Assembly: GCA_022792535.1 (NCBI GenBank)
Contig: JAAWBG010000021.1
Location: 43,837-107,836, forward strand
DNA from: Lachnospiraceae bacterium
GTDB taxonomy: Bacteria; Bacillota; Clostridia; Lachnospirales; Lachnospiraceae
DNA length: 64,000 nucleotides
Reading direction: 5' to 3'
The notes below the pieces were generated by a model. The model was not told the DNA's origin, ran no database searches, and worked only from the letters and a program-made list of their open reading frames with translations. This document shows positions 39,113-46,598 of the stretch, piece by piece. Each line of letters begins with the position of its first letter. Position 1 is the stretch's first letter. The position numbers and the translations under genes are program-made.

Positions 39113-39484
39113 ATGGAAGAACTACGCGCACAGCAGATAGAAGCATTGGAGGTACTTTGTGATTACAACCAGAAACTGGTAAAAAGCATTCGCAATATTA
39201 TCTCAGAACTAAAAGGAGAACGAAAGGAAGATACAGATCAGTTTTTAGATGAGATCATAAAAGGAATCAACTGGGAAATCGGTGTTTTGAATGGAACCAT
39301 GTCGCTGATCAATGAGAAGGAAGAACGGATCAAAAAAGAGGAAATTAATGCCAGTATTTCCAAATTAAGCCAGGTATTGGCAGAGAAAAAGGATGCAGAG
39401 GTTGCAGAAGCGCTGGAAGAGGCGCTGCCAGTATTTGAAAAGTTTGGAGACGCTGCCGGGAAAGTATTAGAGGAAGAGAAATGA
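39113..39484 (+). CDS. Small helical protein of unknown function
   Basis: 123 aa, charged, coiled-coil-like; RBS GAGGAGG. Confidence 0.55.
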   Translation: MEELRAQQIEALEVLCDYNQKLVKSIRNIISELKGERKEDTDQFLDEIIKGINWEIGVLNGTMSLINEKEERIKKEEINASISKLSQVLAEKKDAEVAEALEEALPVFEKFGDAAGKVLEEEK

Positions 39485-39596: not shown

Positions 39597-39622
39597 AGTG
39601 GGATGGAAAGGGGGATTGCAGA

Positions 39623-39847
39623 ATGGCAAAGATTACGTACGCAAGAGAAAAGTCAAACATAGCAGAGGCAATTTCCGTTGATAAGTTTGAACGAAGTATT
39701 ACGAGGATTTCCAAGGAAATTGAGGAACAGGAAGAGAGAAAACGTTTTCCGGTAAGACGGTTTGGACCGGGGAGCATAGAAGCGGAATTGAAAGAGATTA
39801 CCATGTTGGACAGCATTTTATCACCATATGAATTACTTTCGAAATAG
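39623..39847 (+). CDS. Small uncharacterised protein upstream of RADAR locus
   Basis: 74 aa MAKITYAREKSNIAEAISVDKFERSITRISKEIEEQEERKRFPVRRFGPGSIEAELKEITMLDSILSPYELLSK. Confidence 0.45.
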   Translation: MAKITYAREKSNIAEAISVDKFERSITRISKEIEEQEERKRFPVRRFGPGSIEAELKEITMLDSILSPYELLSK

Positions 39848-39937
39848 ACTTTCATTTGCAGCCTGCCGTTTAAGGGGCCATATGGCTGCCTGGGCTGTGA
39901 AGTCGAAAATTTTCAAAGTTACATGAGGAGGAGAAAT

Positions 39938-42838
39938 ATGAAGGGGACGAAGGAAATTACGCACAAAGTGGGCATAAAATTATTGAATGATGTACAGCTG
40001 CACAATACCTTTCCGGGTTTTGACGATTTGTGGCGTAAAATTGAAGATTACCGTAAAGTAAATATCGAATCAATACAGAAAAGACGTTATCAGGATACAC
40101 TTATGTATGATAATGTCTTTTCTATTTTGGGAGAGAGAGGAACAGGGAAGACGTCTGTACTATATACCTTGAGCAAGAAGATAGAGGATACTTATCAGGG
40201 AGATCTTGTGCTTCCTATTATTATGCCGGAGATTATACCAGAGGAGTGCGATATTTTAGACTGGGTGCTGGCGGTAATCAGTGAAAAACTGGAAAATTTT
40301 GCGGAGAAACAGGAGATGGATTATGCCCAGAGATGTCATGTGGAGAATACCGAAAGTCTGCGGAAGAAGTTGAAAAAGATTTGTGAGCTGAGTTTTTCTG
40401 TAAAATATAATCCTGATTCAGAACATTCCTTTTATGAGGTAGTCAGCAATTCAGAGCGCCAGGCCCAGAATGCCTTTTCTTTTGCCAGGGAGTTAACGGA
40501 ATTCTGGACGGAGCTTGCGGAGGCCCTGCGGAAAAACAATCGCTCTGAGCCAGAAGAAAATGCTATGATTTATTTTTTCTTTGATGATGTGGACCTGGCG
40601 CCTGAGAGGGTGAACAATCTGTTTTCTGTTGTCACGAAATACTTAGCCCATCCTAATATTATTGTAGTGATCACTGCAGATGAGAACCAGATCATGGAGG
40701 TAACGGAGATCAACGTTACAAACCGGATGAGGAAACTGCCCAAAGAATGGCAGGTATACTTGGAGAAGAACAGTGTGAATACGGGATGGTTTTTACGGGA
40801 ACAAGTGGATGTCAATTACAAGGATTACGAAAGTGCGCGGGCTTATCTGTTGAAAATTCTTCCCACGTCTACCCGTTATTATCTGAAAGAGTTTCGGCGT
40901 ATATCAGAGAAGCAGAATTTTATTATGGAAGATGATATTTCTTTGAATGAAGCGGTGAAAGAGCTGCTCAATCAATTGTGTTCAAAGGAAAGGGGAATGG
41001 ATATTACGGACAGCGAGCTGGCCTTTTATTTCCATTTTGTGGGAAATTCTTCCAGACAGATGGGAAATGCTTACTATATTATACGTCAATTTTTGGAAGG
41101 CGCCATGCGTCTGGCAGAGCAGGCAGAGGAAAAGGAGGAACTCAGGCAGGAATATGTCAAGGGATTGTATGAGGCGATGAAACAATTTGTCTATCTGATG
41201 CTCCGCTCTAATACAGAAAAATTTGATAAAGTAAAAAATGAGGAAGAGTTTACGGATAAATTTCTTCTCTATCAATATAACCAATGGGATATGTACATAA
41301 ATTACCGATATATTCCAGAGTTTTATGGGGAAAACATGGATTATGAAAATGAAAATGCCAACGGGTATGGGACTAAGAAGAAAGATTTTATGGATATGTC
41401 CATTGCCTTGTATGCACTGGGATTTTTCCTTGACAGAGTTTTAATGATGTTAAATAAAAAGATTTCCATTTCTATCTGTCCCAAACATCAGAAATATTAT
41501 GCGCAGAATGAATTGGCTGGATTTGTAAATAAACGAGTATTTTCCAATCGAAAAATGATTCGAACCAATATGGAGATGCAGGATTTTCTGGAACATTACG
41601 AAAATTTGTTCCGGGAAATTAACAGATTGTATAAATTTGACAGAAACAGCGCCAGGGACGTCTACGATTATCTTCACTGTTTTGATCAAAAAGAGTGGAG
41701 AGGAACCCGCGGGATGGTAAAAAAATGGTTTTATAAGGATCGGGAATGGTTTGAGAATATTCTGGCGATTGTATCCATGGCATATGAAAATGTTTACATT
41801 TTTGGCGAAGAATTATCTGCTAAAACAGATATTATGACAAAGGAGCTGGATCTTGATTTTGTCAATACGGTAAGAAAAGATGTGAGGGCGGAGATTGAGG
41901 ATTTTATGTGCCTCAGAAAATTAAAAAAACAGAAACAACTGAAAGATGAGGCTGCATGGCAGGCAGGGAAACGGAAAACTTTGATGGACGAAGTGATGTT
42001 TCAGGCAGAGGGTCATAATCATTATATCTACTTGGAGAGCGTGTATGAGAGATGTAAAGAGATGATCCTTGAGCTGAAAATAGGAAGCAGCGAAGATCCG
42101 GAACAGGTGGAAGGGATTACTATCAATGATATGATGTATTACTGTTCGGAAAGTACCAAAAAATCTTTGGAGAATTTGTTGTGGAATGTGAAAGAGATCG
42201 GCGCTGTGGAAGAGTATATGGAAGAACTAAAAGACAGTATTGAATACCGCTATAAGAAATATTATAACCTGGTGGAAATATTGGATGAAGAGGCATATTT
42301 CGCTAACATGGAAGAACTTGGCGATTCTCAGGCAGAGAGCTATGACATGTACCGGAAGATGATCGAGCAGGAATTTATGGGCGGAACCAGGGTTTTCAAC
42401 AACCGGATTCTGAATTTTGCCAGAAGTGTGAAAAAGATTTTAGATAAGACGGGACAGGTGATGGAATCAGAAGAGCGGAAAAGAGTTTATGAGAATTATA
42501 CGGTGCCTTATTACAGGCTCTTAAAAAGTGTTTCCGTTTGTATTCCAGAGGAACGGTTGGGAGAGGCGATAGACTTCTGCCTGGATATTATCAGCTATAT
42601 CTGCGTGGTGGAATGGTATCTGGCAGGAAGGGTTACCTGGAAAGAACAGGGAGGAGAAGTATATACAGCCAGAGAATTATTCAATGCCTCTCCGAAAAGG
42701 AAACATATGTATTACGCTGTGTTTTACAGGATATGCGAGGAGATTATGGATGACCGAAAGGAAGAGTGGATGGGGGAAACCTTAGATACTATTGTAAAAG
42801 AGACAAGACAGGAGTATGTGGATTATATTTTAAGATAA
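39938..42838 (+). CDS. rdrA: RdrA-like P-loop ATPase of RADAR anti-phage system
   Basis: Walker A SILGERGTGKTSVL; Walker B MIYFFFDDVDLAPERVNNLFSVVTKYLAHPNIIVVITAD; ~970 aa; followed by a large adenosine-deaminase-like ORF. Confidence 0.82.
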   Translation: MKGTKEITHKVGIKLLNDVQLHNTFPGFDDLWRKIEDYRKVNIESIQKRRYQDTLMYDNVFSILGERGTGKTSVLYTLSKKIEDTYQGDLVLPIIMPEIIPEECDILDWVLAVISEKLENFAEKQEMDYAQRCHVENTESLRKKLKKICELSFSVKYNPDSEHSFYEVVSNSERQAQNAFSFARELTEFWTELAEALRKNNRSEPEENAMIYFFFDDVDLAPERVNNLFSVVTKYLAHPNIIVVITADENQIMEVTEINVTNRMRKLPKEWQVYLEKNSVNTGWFLREQVDVNYKDYESARAYLLKILPTSTRYYLKEFRRISEKQNFIMEDDISLNEAVKELLNQLCSKERGMDITDSELAFYFHFVGNSSRQMGNAYYIIRQFLEGAMRLAEQAEEKEELRQEYVKGLYEAMKQFVYLMLRSNTEKFDKVKNEEEFTDKFLLYQYNQWDMYINYRYIPEFYGENMDYENENANGYGTKKKDFMDMSIALYALGFFLDRVLMMLNKKISISICPKHQKYYAQNELAGFVNKRVFSNRKMIRTNMEMQDFLEHYENLFREINRLYKFDRNSARDVYDYLHCFDQKEWRGTRGMVKKWFYKDREWFENILAIVSMAYENVYIFGEELSAKTDIMTKELDLDFVNTVRKDVRAEIEDFMCLRKLKKQKQLKDEAAWQAGKRKTLMDEVMFQAEGHNHYIYLESVYERCKEMILELKIGSSEDPEQVEGITINDMMYYCSESTKKSLENLLWNVKEIGAVEEYMEELKDSIEYRYKKYYNLVEILDEEAYFANMEELGDSQAESYDMYRKMIEQEFMGGTRVFNNRILNFARSVKKILDKTGQVMESEERKRVYENYTVPYYRLLKSVSVCIPEERLGEAIDFCLDIISYICVVEWYLAGRVTWKEQGGEVYTARELFNASPKRKHMYYAVFYRICEEIMDDRKEEWMGETLDTIVKETRQEYVDYILR

Positions 42839-42850
42839 GAGGGGAAACTT

Positions 42851-43435
42851 TTGAATAAATTCAGACTAAACCAGATTTTAGAGATATTGACGTTTCCCTA
42901 TACGGATACAGGGCTGATTCAGAAGGATGCGCTGGCGGAACGGGAAGACGCCTATTGTGCATACCTGGATCATACCGAGCGGTTCAGTGTGAAAGGGAGA
43001 GGAGAGACGTCGAAAAGATATGAGGAAGCTCAGAAAAATTTTGGGAAATATCTTTGTAGAATTTGCTCTGGCAGACCGAAATCACTGGATGATGTTCTGC
43101 TGGTGGGAGAGAAATTTTTCTCCCACAATCGAATTACAGAAGATATGAGCCATAAATGGAAAGGGGCGGCCCGGAGGGAGATGGTAGTCAAATGCTACAT
43201 AGATAATATTTTTTGGATTGCCAATTCTCTGCTGACGTCCAGAGATGGGATTCTTGCCATCCGAACTTGGAAAAACAAGGCTGGAAGAGAATTTCCGGAG
43301 GATATTTTAGGAACTAGCAGCGCTTTTGATAAAGTTGAGATTTGGAATACGCTGACTCGGATTGTAACGCCGGATCTGTTTCTTGCAGCTTTTGTGGCAA
43401 TGAATGGGAATCGAATGGAAATGTTTTATAAATAA
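42851..43435 (+). CDS. N-terminal part of RdrB-like protein (TTG start), ended by in-frame TAA at 43433-43435
   Basis: Same frame as 43469-45655; frame stays open from 43436 to 43469 (GATISLADKLL-MANLKRGMAETHLHIN). Confidence 0.65.
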   Translation: MNKFRLNQILEILTFPYTDTGLIQKDALAEREDAYCAYLDHTERFSVKGRGETSKRYEEAQKNFGKYLCRICSGRPKSLDDVLLVGEKFFSHNRITEDMSHKWKGAARREMVVKCYIDNIFWIANSLLTSRDGILAIRTWKNKAGREFPEDILGTSSAFDKVEIWNTLTRIVTPDLFLAAFVAMNGNRMEMFYK

Positions 43436-43468
43436 GGGGCAACGATCTCTCTGGCAGATAAGCTGCTG

Positions 43469-45655
43469 ATGGCCAATTTGAAACGAGGCATGGCAGAGAC
43501 ACATTTACATATCAATGTATCCAGTGATTATCTGATGTTGTGGGAGAAGACCACAAACCTTGCCATATGGAAGGAGTATATTTTTAATCCAGAAAGTAAG
43601 TTTGAGGGACAGGATTATGTGCTTTTTCACCTATCGGTTTATCGGTGTGCAGCGGCATATTTTTTAGAATATGAAGCTTGGAAACCAGGCAGTGAAAAAT
43701 TTTTCCCAGAGATATTTCCTGAATTAATTCAGAGTATGCAAAAGCCGGACGCCGGCAAATGGGAAACCAGGGAAGAAAAGATCCTCTATTTTGAAGAGAT
43801 GGAGAAAAGGTGCAGAAAGTATATGGGAGAGATAGACGTCCTTAAAATGCGTGAGAAGGATATTCTTTCTTACGTTTTATATGAGCGGTATGAGGAGCTG
43901 GATACCAGCCCGGAGTACTTTTTTCTGGCAAAATCTCTGGGATATATTAGGGAATCTCAAGACATCCAGTATGCCAAATTGTTTTTGCAGTACATACGAA
44001 TAAAAAACACCTTTTTCTCAAAAATTTTCCAGCGGAATATTGTACAGGGGTTGAACTGGTTTCAAAATTATTTTTCCAAGGCTTCTGGTTCTTTCCGAAG
44101 AGGCATTACCCAGGAGAGACGCTGGGATTATATTCTGAAAACCCAGGTCAATAACAACGCATTGAAAAAACTGGAATTTCGAATGTCCGTAGACACAGAG
44201 CGGAAATTTTATGATGAAAATAATCCTCTGGTACAGTTGGAATTGCAGAAGGAGATTTTAAGAGAGATTGGGAAATTTTTGAGCCATTACAGGAAATATA
44301 TTCATGGCAAAGAAGATGCTCCCACGATTGGAATTGTCCTGCATTTTAATAAGCGGAAATCTCTTGATAATAGTTCAGGGTATTTTTGCTGGAGGCGTGC
44401 TGCAGAATCACAGATCTATAATACCCAGCATAAAATTGCACTGCGCAGAAAGTGCGTGAATATTGCCAGGGCAATTGCAGTGATCAGAAATGAGATTCCT
44501 TATCTGGATGAATATCTGGTGGGCTTGGATGCGGCGTCAGATGAAAATGCAGTGGAGCCATGGCTGTTTTCTCCGGCCTACAATGAGGTGCGGAACCGTT
44601 TGTATTCTGATATGGTGAAGGCTTTTGGGAAGGATGGGAAGAAAATTTACAAAAGAATCCAAAACATTGGTCTTACTTATCATGTGGGAGAAGATTACAG
44701 ACATATTATGTCGGGGCTCAGGCACATTGACGAGGTAATTGAGAAATACAATTATCGTTCCTGTGATAGAATTGGTCATGGAATTGCATTGGGAGTGGAT
44801 GTAGATTATTGGATGGAAAATAATCGAAATGTCTTAATGCCCTTGGGAGAATATCTGGATAATCTGCTCTGGGTGTGGGGCGTTGTGATTGAAAATAAAT
44901 ATGAACTTCCAGTTTCCGCTTATGCGCTGGAAGGAAAAATACTGGAGATAGCGTCAAAAATATATTGTAATATGGCAGGAATTACCGTTCATGTTCTATA
45001 TCAGGCATATCAAGAAAAATTCAAAAGGAATTTGAATGAAATGTTTTGGCAGCAGGATGAGGATTTTGAAAAGAGGGAAAGGAAAGATCCAAGTCTGGGA
45101 ATGGCCTGCCGCTATGATGCGGAACCAGGAACAAAAGAGAGTTTGTGGAATGTATCTAAGATTATCTGCACCTATTTTTGTTCTATATATGAGGATAAAT
45201 ACAACCAGGTGATTTGGCTGGAGACAACAGAGGAAGATGCGAAACTCCTGAAAACGCTGCAGATCTATATGATGGAAAAGATTCAGAGACGGGGAATCTA
45301 TATTGAGACCAATCCCACTTCTAATCTGGCCATTGGTGAGATTGAAAGTCTGTACAGTCATTATATCCTCAACTTGAACAGCCTGGAAGAGGAAAGGCCC
45401 AGGCACAATCTGATGGTTACCATCAATTCAGACGATCCTATGGTATTTAATACCAATGTGGAAAATGAGCTGGCCTATATGTATCACGGGCTGATTCATG
45501 GAGGATATGATTCAAAAACTACCTTGGAATGGATTGATAAGGTAAGACAATATGGATTGGAAAGCAGTTTTATCCAAAAGGTAAAAACGGTACAGGAGAT
45601 GGAAGGAGAGATTACAATAATAGAAAAGGCAATAGAGAATTTTATGAAAAGGTAG
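43469..45655 (+). CDS. rdrB: RdrB-like adenosine deaminase (RADAR system), catalytic part
   Basis: MAETHLHIN (metal-binding HxH), GLTYHVGEDYRHIMSGLRHIDEVIEKYNYRSCDRIGHGIALG, METNPTSNLAIG-like and TINSDDPMVF deaminase motifs. Confidence 0.82.
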   Translation: MANLKRGMAETHLHINVSSDYLMLWEKTTNLAIWKEYIFNPESKFEGQDYVLFHLSVYRCAAAYFLEYEAWKPGSEKFFPEIFPELIQSMQKPDAGKWETREEKILYFEEMEKRCRKYMGEIDVLKMREKDILSYVLYERYEELDTSPEYFFLAKSLGYIRESQDIQYAKLFLQYIRIKNTFFSKIFQRNIVQGLNWFQNYFSKASGSFRRGITQERRWDYILKTQVNNNALKKLEFRMSVDTERKFYDENNPLVQLELQKEILREIGKFLSHYRKYIHGKEDAPTIGIVLHFNKRKSLDNSSGYFCWRRAAESQIYNTQHKIALRRKCVNIARAIAVIRNEIPYLDEYLVGLDAASDENAVEPWLFSPAYNEVRNRLYSDMVKAFGKDGKKIYKRIQNIGLTYHVGEDYRHIMSGLRHIDEVIEKYNYRSCDRIGHGIALGVDVDYWMENNRNVLMPLGEYLDNLLWVWGVVIENKYELPVSAYALEGKILEIASKIYCNMAGITVHVLYQAYQEKFKRNLNEMFWQQDEDFEKRERKDPSLGMACRYDAEPGTKESLWNVSKIICTYFCSIYEDKYNQVIWLETTEEDAKLLKTLQIYMMEKIQRRGIYIETNPTSNLAIGEIESLYSHYILNLNSLEEERPRHNLMVTINSDDPMVFNTNVENELAYMYHGLIHGGYDSKTTLEWIDKVRQYGLESSFIQKVKTVQEMEGEITIIEKAIENFMKR

Positions 45656-45695
45656 TAGCCTTGTTGTTATTTTGAAAAATTTTCGATCATATACA

Positions 45696-45723
45696 TTGCA
45701 AAAATGGTGATCTTTGCTATAAT
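45696..45723 (+). promoter_or_regulatory. Sigma-A-like promoter upstream of second flagellin
   Basis: TTGCAA-N16-TATAAT. Confidence 0.55.
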
Positions 45724-45785
45724 AAAATTAATACTAGTTATTTGTCTTGCGAGAGATATGATATGGAAAGAAGGGAGGTTTTTGT

Positions 45786-46598
45786 ATGAGTATTTCATCC
45801 ATTGGAGGCAGACAGAATTTTTACAGTAATCAGAGTCTGTATACGAAGCAGAATCAGAATCTGCATCGGAATTTCCGGCAGTTAGCCAGCGGCAAACGGA
45901 TTAATTCTGCCGCAGATGACGCAGCAGGTCTTGCGATTGCCACAAAGCTTTTATCTCAGCGCAACGGATATGATGTGGGAACCAGGAATGCAGCCACTTC
46001 TCAGGATATGGTGAATGTGGCGGAAGGCGGATTGTCTAAGATTTCAGATTCGCTGCAGCGGATGCGGGAGCTGAGCATTCAGGCGTCTAATACAGCCATT
46101 TATGGAGAGGATGACAGAGCGTCCATTCAGCAGGAGATTGATCAGCTGAAAGGTTATATTTCCGACGCGGCTGGGAACACACAATTCAATAATATGAATC
46201 TTTTAGATGGTTCCATGGGCAGATCCCATGTGGCATCCAGCCCCAATGGCGGCGGTATGGATATCAATATGCCGGATGCAGTGCTGAAGTCCCTGGGAAT
46301 TGAAGATTATGATGTGACCGGAGACTTTGATATCTCATCCATTGACAGCGCATTAGAAAAGGTATCTTCAGCCAGAAGCGGGCTTGGAGCAGCCTACAAT
46401 CGGCTGAGCCATACCATCAACTATAATTCCTATGCATCTTATAATACTACAGCGTCTCAGAGCCGGTTAGAAGATCTGGATTATGCCGGAGCTGTTTCTG
46501 ATATGAAGAAAAATAGCCTGTTACAGGAATATCGGATTATGATGCAGAAGAAGCAGCAGGAAGAATACGGAAGAGTGAATCAGCTTATGAGGTTCTAA
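45786..46598 (+). CDS. Divergent flagellin with atypical C-terminus
   Basis: NQNLHRNFRQLASGKRINSAADDAAGLAIATKLLSQRNGYDVGTRNAATSQDMVNVAEGGLSKISDSLQRMRELSIQASN; ends LLQEYRIMMQKKQQEEYGRVNQLMRF. Confidence 0.9.
   Translation: MSISSIGGRQNFYSNQSLYTKQNQNLHRNFRQLASGKRINSAADDAAGLAIATKLLSQRNGYDVGTRNAATSQDMVNVAEGGLSKISDSLQRMRELSIQASNTAIYGEDDRASIQQEIDQLKGYISDAAGNTQFNNMNLLDGSMGRSHVASSPNGGGMDINMPDAVLKSLGIEDYDVTGDFDISSIDSALEKVSSARSGLGAAYNRLSHTINYNSYASYNTTASQSRLEDLDYAGAVSDMKKNSLLQEYRIMMQKKQQEEYGRVNQLMRF

Follow-up and report, generated by a model that had tools for sequence, protein, structure and literature searches.

The rdrB gene of this locus is cut in two by one codon, and the question is whether the cut marks a recently disabled gene, a naturally two-part protein or a stop that the cell reads through. 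Within the window, by which we mean the whole 64,000-nucleotide stretch of DNA analysed, the rdrB frame (42851-45655) comprises 935 codons and is open save for a single in-frame TAA at 43433-43435. The resulting open reading frames share an identical frame: the 5' part (42851-43435) starts at a TTG and encodes a 194-aa N-terminal extension terminated by the premature TAA, whereas the 3' part (43469-45655) begins at an ATG without a ribosome site and encodes, in 728 codons, the adenosine-deaminase barrel with its insertions. Between the stop and that ATG lies a linker of 11 open codons (GATISLADKLL, 43436-43468) that is conserved as protein, and the coordinates of the split frame given by an earlier sequence-only reading were all confirmed. 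The cassette genes and the features within them lie on the plus strand.

A divergent RADAR cassette

The stop lies in a chromosomal RADAR cassette, composed of a 74-aa gene, rdrA and rdrB, in a Clostridia species congeneric with Eubacterium sp. 14-2. Searches with the 728-aa part gave RdrB matches in PADLOC (2.5e-37), in NCBIfam (NF041744, 1.2e-57) and against the solved Escherichia coli protein (3e-17), and sequence motifs, an alignment (A1) and PADLOC together identify it as an RdrB deaminase with zinc-binding histidines and a catalytic glutamate. In E. coli RdrB the zinc-binding and catalytic residues are H152, H154, H498, E501 and H530 (PMC9994260). Their equivalents in alignment A1 are an invariant H-x-H zinc motif at 43502-43510 (H152/H154), an H-x-G-E motif at 44681-44692 (H498/E501) and the histidine of a GH pair at 44777-44779 (H530), in keeping with the earlier remark that the deaminase catalytic motifs are all intact.

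Just upstream of rdrB lies rdrA (39938-42838), the intact AAA+ ATPase partner, a 971-aa open reading frame for a KAP-type ATPase with the Walker A sequence GERGTGKT. A profile built from this protein and its relatives matches E. coli RdrA (8fnt/8hr7) at 4e-8, and the NCBIfam RdrA family NF041743 gives a match at 5e-8; the window RdrA protein by itself gives no match to the PADLOC RdrA models, which do match six of the seven members of its alignment (best value 1.4e-16). Translation of rdrA likely begins at 39938, an ATG with a strong ribosome site, rather than at the first ATG of the open reading frame at 39923.

Both proteins fall below the NCBIfam equivalog cut-offs, with RdrB scoring 196 of the 800 bits required and RdrA 31.9 of 600. 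Because the intact RdrB of the sister genome also falls short of the NF041744 cut-off (188.8 bits), the low RdrB scores reflect the divergence of the whole branch, in line with the published observation that sequence conservation between RADAR systems is low (PMC9994260). Compared with E. coli RADAR RdrB (PDB 8fnw, 8fnv and 8hr7; NF041744), the window protein shares a barrel with the H-x-H, H-x-G-E and GH zinc and catalytic residues and an adjoining RdrA, but differs in its low identity and sub-cut-off NF041744 score, in the stop before the barrel and in the N-terminal 194 aa, for which we found no convincing match in PDB, PHROGs, Pfam, PADLOC or NCBIfam. Among viral contigs we found only three distant RdrBs, all matching over the C-terminal part, and phage records contained no RdrB.

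One chain in every full-length relative examined

Syntenic orthologues are present in three other species of the genus, where RdrB, 65-79% identical to that of the window, is a single protein of 931-936 aa (936 aa in G024, 931 aa in G021 and 933 aa in G003). At the position of the TAA all three carry CAG, a glutamine codon, within the sequence Y(R/G)QGA(N/S)ISLADKLL. The closest of them, which we use as the sister throughout, is Eubacterium sp. 14-2 (L001, NZ_KE159568.1; its sequence is identical to that of G024/L033): its RdrB is 79% identical and syntenic, and shares with the window both the gene order (74-aa gene, rdrA, rdrB) and the TTG start, but it has an intact 936-aa frame with CAG in place of the TAA. 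Single-frame RdrB genes also occur in nine further genomes (G005, G020, G057, G182, G014, G467, G448, G248 and G423) and on two plasmids, of Cetobacterium somerae (882 aa) and Bacillus cereus (907 aa). Apparent in-frame stops in two genomes (G014:C222 and G376) were rejected as natural gene ends.

The sequence-only reading had proposed an alignment to RdrB homologues to see whether the residues on either side of the stop are normally fused; they are, in all full-length relatives examined. Among these 14 relatives (three orthologues, nine genomes and two plasmids) there is no split homologue, and since no homologue that we found encodes two proteins here, the idea of a natural split fails by the very comparison with which it was put forward. 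A literature search likewise returned nothing on a split or disrupted RdrB. The window thus has a premature stop, at codon 195, where its orthologues encode an amino acid, as expected of a pseudogene; in all orthologues the RdrB chain runs without interruption from the N-terminal extension onward, and in the window it does not. RdrB is furthermore the only gene so affected: when the window genes were compared with the sister-genome region, the other 22 shared genes, amounting to ~8,600 codons, had no in-frame stop.

The position of the stop suggests that it divides an N-terminal assembly extension from the deaminase barrel. The H-x-H motif lies 23 codons 3' of the stop and the equivalents of all five E. 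coli residues lie downstream of it, and in the NF041744 alignment residue 208 of the sister protein corresponds to model position 143, which fits a cut just before the barrel. In the E. coli dodecamer, the N-terminal extension of RdrB (insertion 1) and insertion 2 build the two-fold interface, and defence is lost when the three-fold interface is mutated (PMC9994260). As the N-terminal part shows no detectable similarity to the solved protein, it is by position that we equate it with the E. coli extension; a single-sequence structure prediction of the intact sister RdrB reached a mean pLDDT of 33.7, and the model was not used.

A probable recent nonsense mutation and its competitors

Selection on both halves of rdrB points to a young stop. 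Synonymous sites are near saturation between window and sister (dS ~1.3 or not computable), dN is 0.08 before the stop and 0.14 after it, and the pairwise dN/dS of ~0.06-0.1 indicates that both halves have been under purifying selection on the window branch. At positions conserved in both outgroups, the window carries 2 private changes before the stop against 10 in the sister, and 28 against 28 after it; the same count for RdrA gives 19 against 32. There is accordingly no excess of changes relative to the sister and no sign of relaxed selection on the window branch, and a simple Poisson bound limits any neutral period to no more than about 1-6% of the branch, with the range depending on assumptions. 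In the linker, a single amino-acid change accompanies five synonymous differences from the sister; it has been conserved as protein and was therefore translated during most of the branch. With both flanks of the stop, and the linker, kept under selection, the TAA must be a recent arrival; the exception would be continued translation of the entire frame together with its linker.

We therefore consider it likely that the TAA is a recent nonsense mutation in the rdrB of a divergent RADAR system, amounting to an ordinary loss of function. This possibility, raised by the sequence-only reading, gains support from the fused orthologues with their glutamine and from selection kept until recently; that all examined related genomes with a full-length copy have it in one piece speaks for ordinary recent loss rather than for a new two-part protein. 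A single substitution, most simply CAA to TAA at a codon that is CAG in the orthologues, would end translation after 194 residues and leave the N-terminal extension as the sole product; the deaminase barrel would rarely or never be made, and ATP-to-ITP conversion and phage defence would be lost in this strain. The place of the stop and the lack of a ribosome site behind it make it most likely that RADAR is off here, with only the 194-aa extension being made, and we class the locus as disrupted rather than functional RADAR.

Two observations count against this reading. The stop falls near the junction of extension and barrel, which is where one would look for a functional split, and a random stop would have roughly a 3% chance of falling within about 25 codons of that junction. 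The change from CAG to TAA, moreover, needs two substitutions, an objection tempered by the near-saturated synonymous sites and by the use of CAA for 17% of glutamine codons (31 of 178) in 14 window open reading frames. As to why the gene was lost, overexpression of RdrB is toxic in E. coli (PMC9994260), which makes escape from autoimmunity or cost a plausible motive, and selection against the cost of a toxic defence could plausibly have favoured the allele. It may also stem from drift, or from a consensus error or minority strain in the draft genome. Phase variation at the stop was set aside, the sequence there having no repeat tract.

The strongest competitor, though an unlikely one, is a TAA that entered through an error of assembly or consensus or that represents a minority strain, with the population itself having a sense codon at 43433. 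It is favoured by the state of the genome, a draft of 150 contigs with 92.7% completeness and 4.9% estimated contamination, and by a frame otherwise intact and under selection; against it, the 22 other shared window genes have no such stop, and single-base consensus errors are uncommon in short-read assemblies.

More doubtful is a scenario in which a low level of re-initiation or readthrough supplies RdrB as two chains or at low dose, so that a tuned-down, less toxic RADAR would be kept by selection. Improbable too is a functional two-chain RdrB, in which ribosomes terminate at the TAA and re-initiate at the ATG 31 nt downstream and extension and barrel act as subunits. Such an arrangement would suit a stop that separates extension from barrel, the location of the catalytic residues, all within the downstream frame, and the conservation of both halves. 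None of the 14 full-length relatives is split, however, and the linker, which would go untranslated, is nevertheless conserved as protein. The ATG at 43469 is an ordinary methionine common to the fused orthologues, and the earlier remark that it has no evident Shine-Dalgarno sequence was borne out: its predicted anti-Shine-Dalgarno pairing is -2.6 kcal/mol, compared with about -8 to -14 kcal/mol for most real starts nearby and an average of -3.6 over 66 internal ATGs, whereas the ribosome site at the upstream TTG start of rdrB is fair (-8.1 kcal/mol). The TAAGGGG at the stop does resemble a Shine-Dalgarno sequence, as had been pointed out, but at ~30 nt before the ATG it is too far away to serve it. 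Without a split recurring in homologues or a start signal downstream of the stop, the proposal of two subunits made by re-initiation finds no footing. Were the barrel made in this way, part of its assembly interface would be missing.

Least probable of all is low-level production of full-length RdrB by stop readthrough or ochre suppression, also among the earlier suggestions and consistent with the conserved frame and linker on either side of the stop: TAA is the normal stop here, ending rdrA, flagellin, nusG and other neighbours, it does not recur inside the other shared genes, and no suppressor tRNA with a UUA anticodon was seen among the tRNA genes read (31 matches, a set that may be incomplete in this draft genome).

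Genomic context and a second broken RdrB

The 74-aa open reading frame before rdrA (39623-39847) has a strong ribosome site and is found in all four cassettes of this branch (46-78% identity); it was not found at loci without the cassette and matched no known family. It may have an accessory or regulatory role in RADAR of this type. The cassette adjoins a flagellin gene: in the window and in Eubacterium sp. 14-2 it lies upstream of that gene, in G021 and G003 downstream. The corresponding region was also read in 18 other genomes of the genus and contained no cassette in any of them; the cassette thus behaves as an insertion. The arrangement suggests that the stretch between glycosyltransferase, flagellin and fliD-like genes is a hot spot for insertions (39600-45786 in the window; L033-L035 and L113-L130 elsewhere).

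A second RdrB of the genus is also broken. In G023 (L041, 14801-17229), an internal deletion of ~290 bp with a frameshift disrupts an rdrB that, as in the window, adjoins an RdrA-like gene. That gene belongs to another RdrB branch and its lesion is a deletion with frameshift instead of a nonsense TAA, and the two losses are therefore independent.

Taken alone, one nonsense mutation in a draft assembly would be ordinary. The locus gains its interest as a very recent natural disruption of RdrB next to an intact RdrA, in a genus where a second RdrB has been independently broken, and the two losses accord with the view that nucleotide-modifying defences with a high cost are frequently lost. For its part, the intact sister cassette provides a clean comparison for the barrel's need of its N-terminal extension.

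Upstream of the cassette, a 123-aa open reading frame (39113-39484) has a weak ferritin-like score below the Pfam cut-off. Whether or not RADAR is present, it is common at this place within the genus, and it probably belongs to the flagellar and glycosylation cluster.
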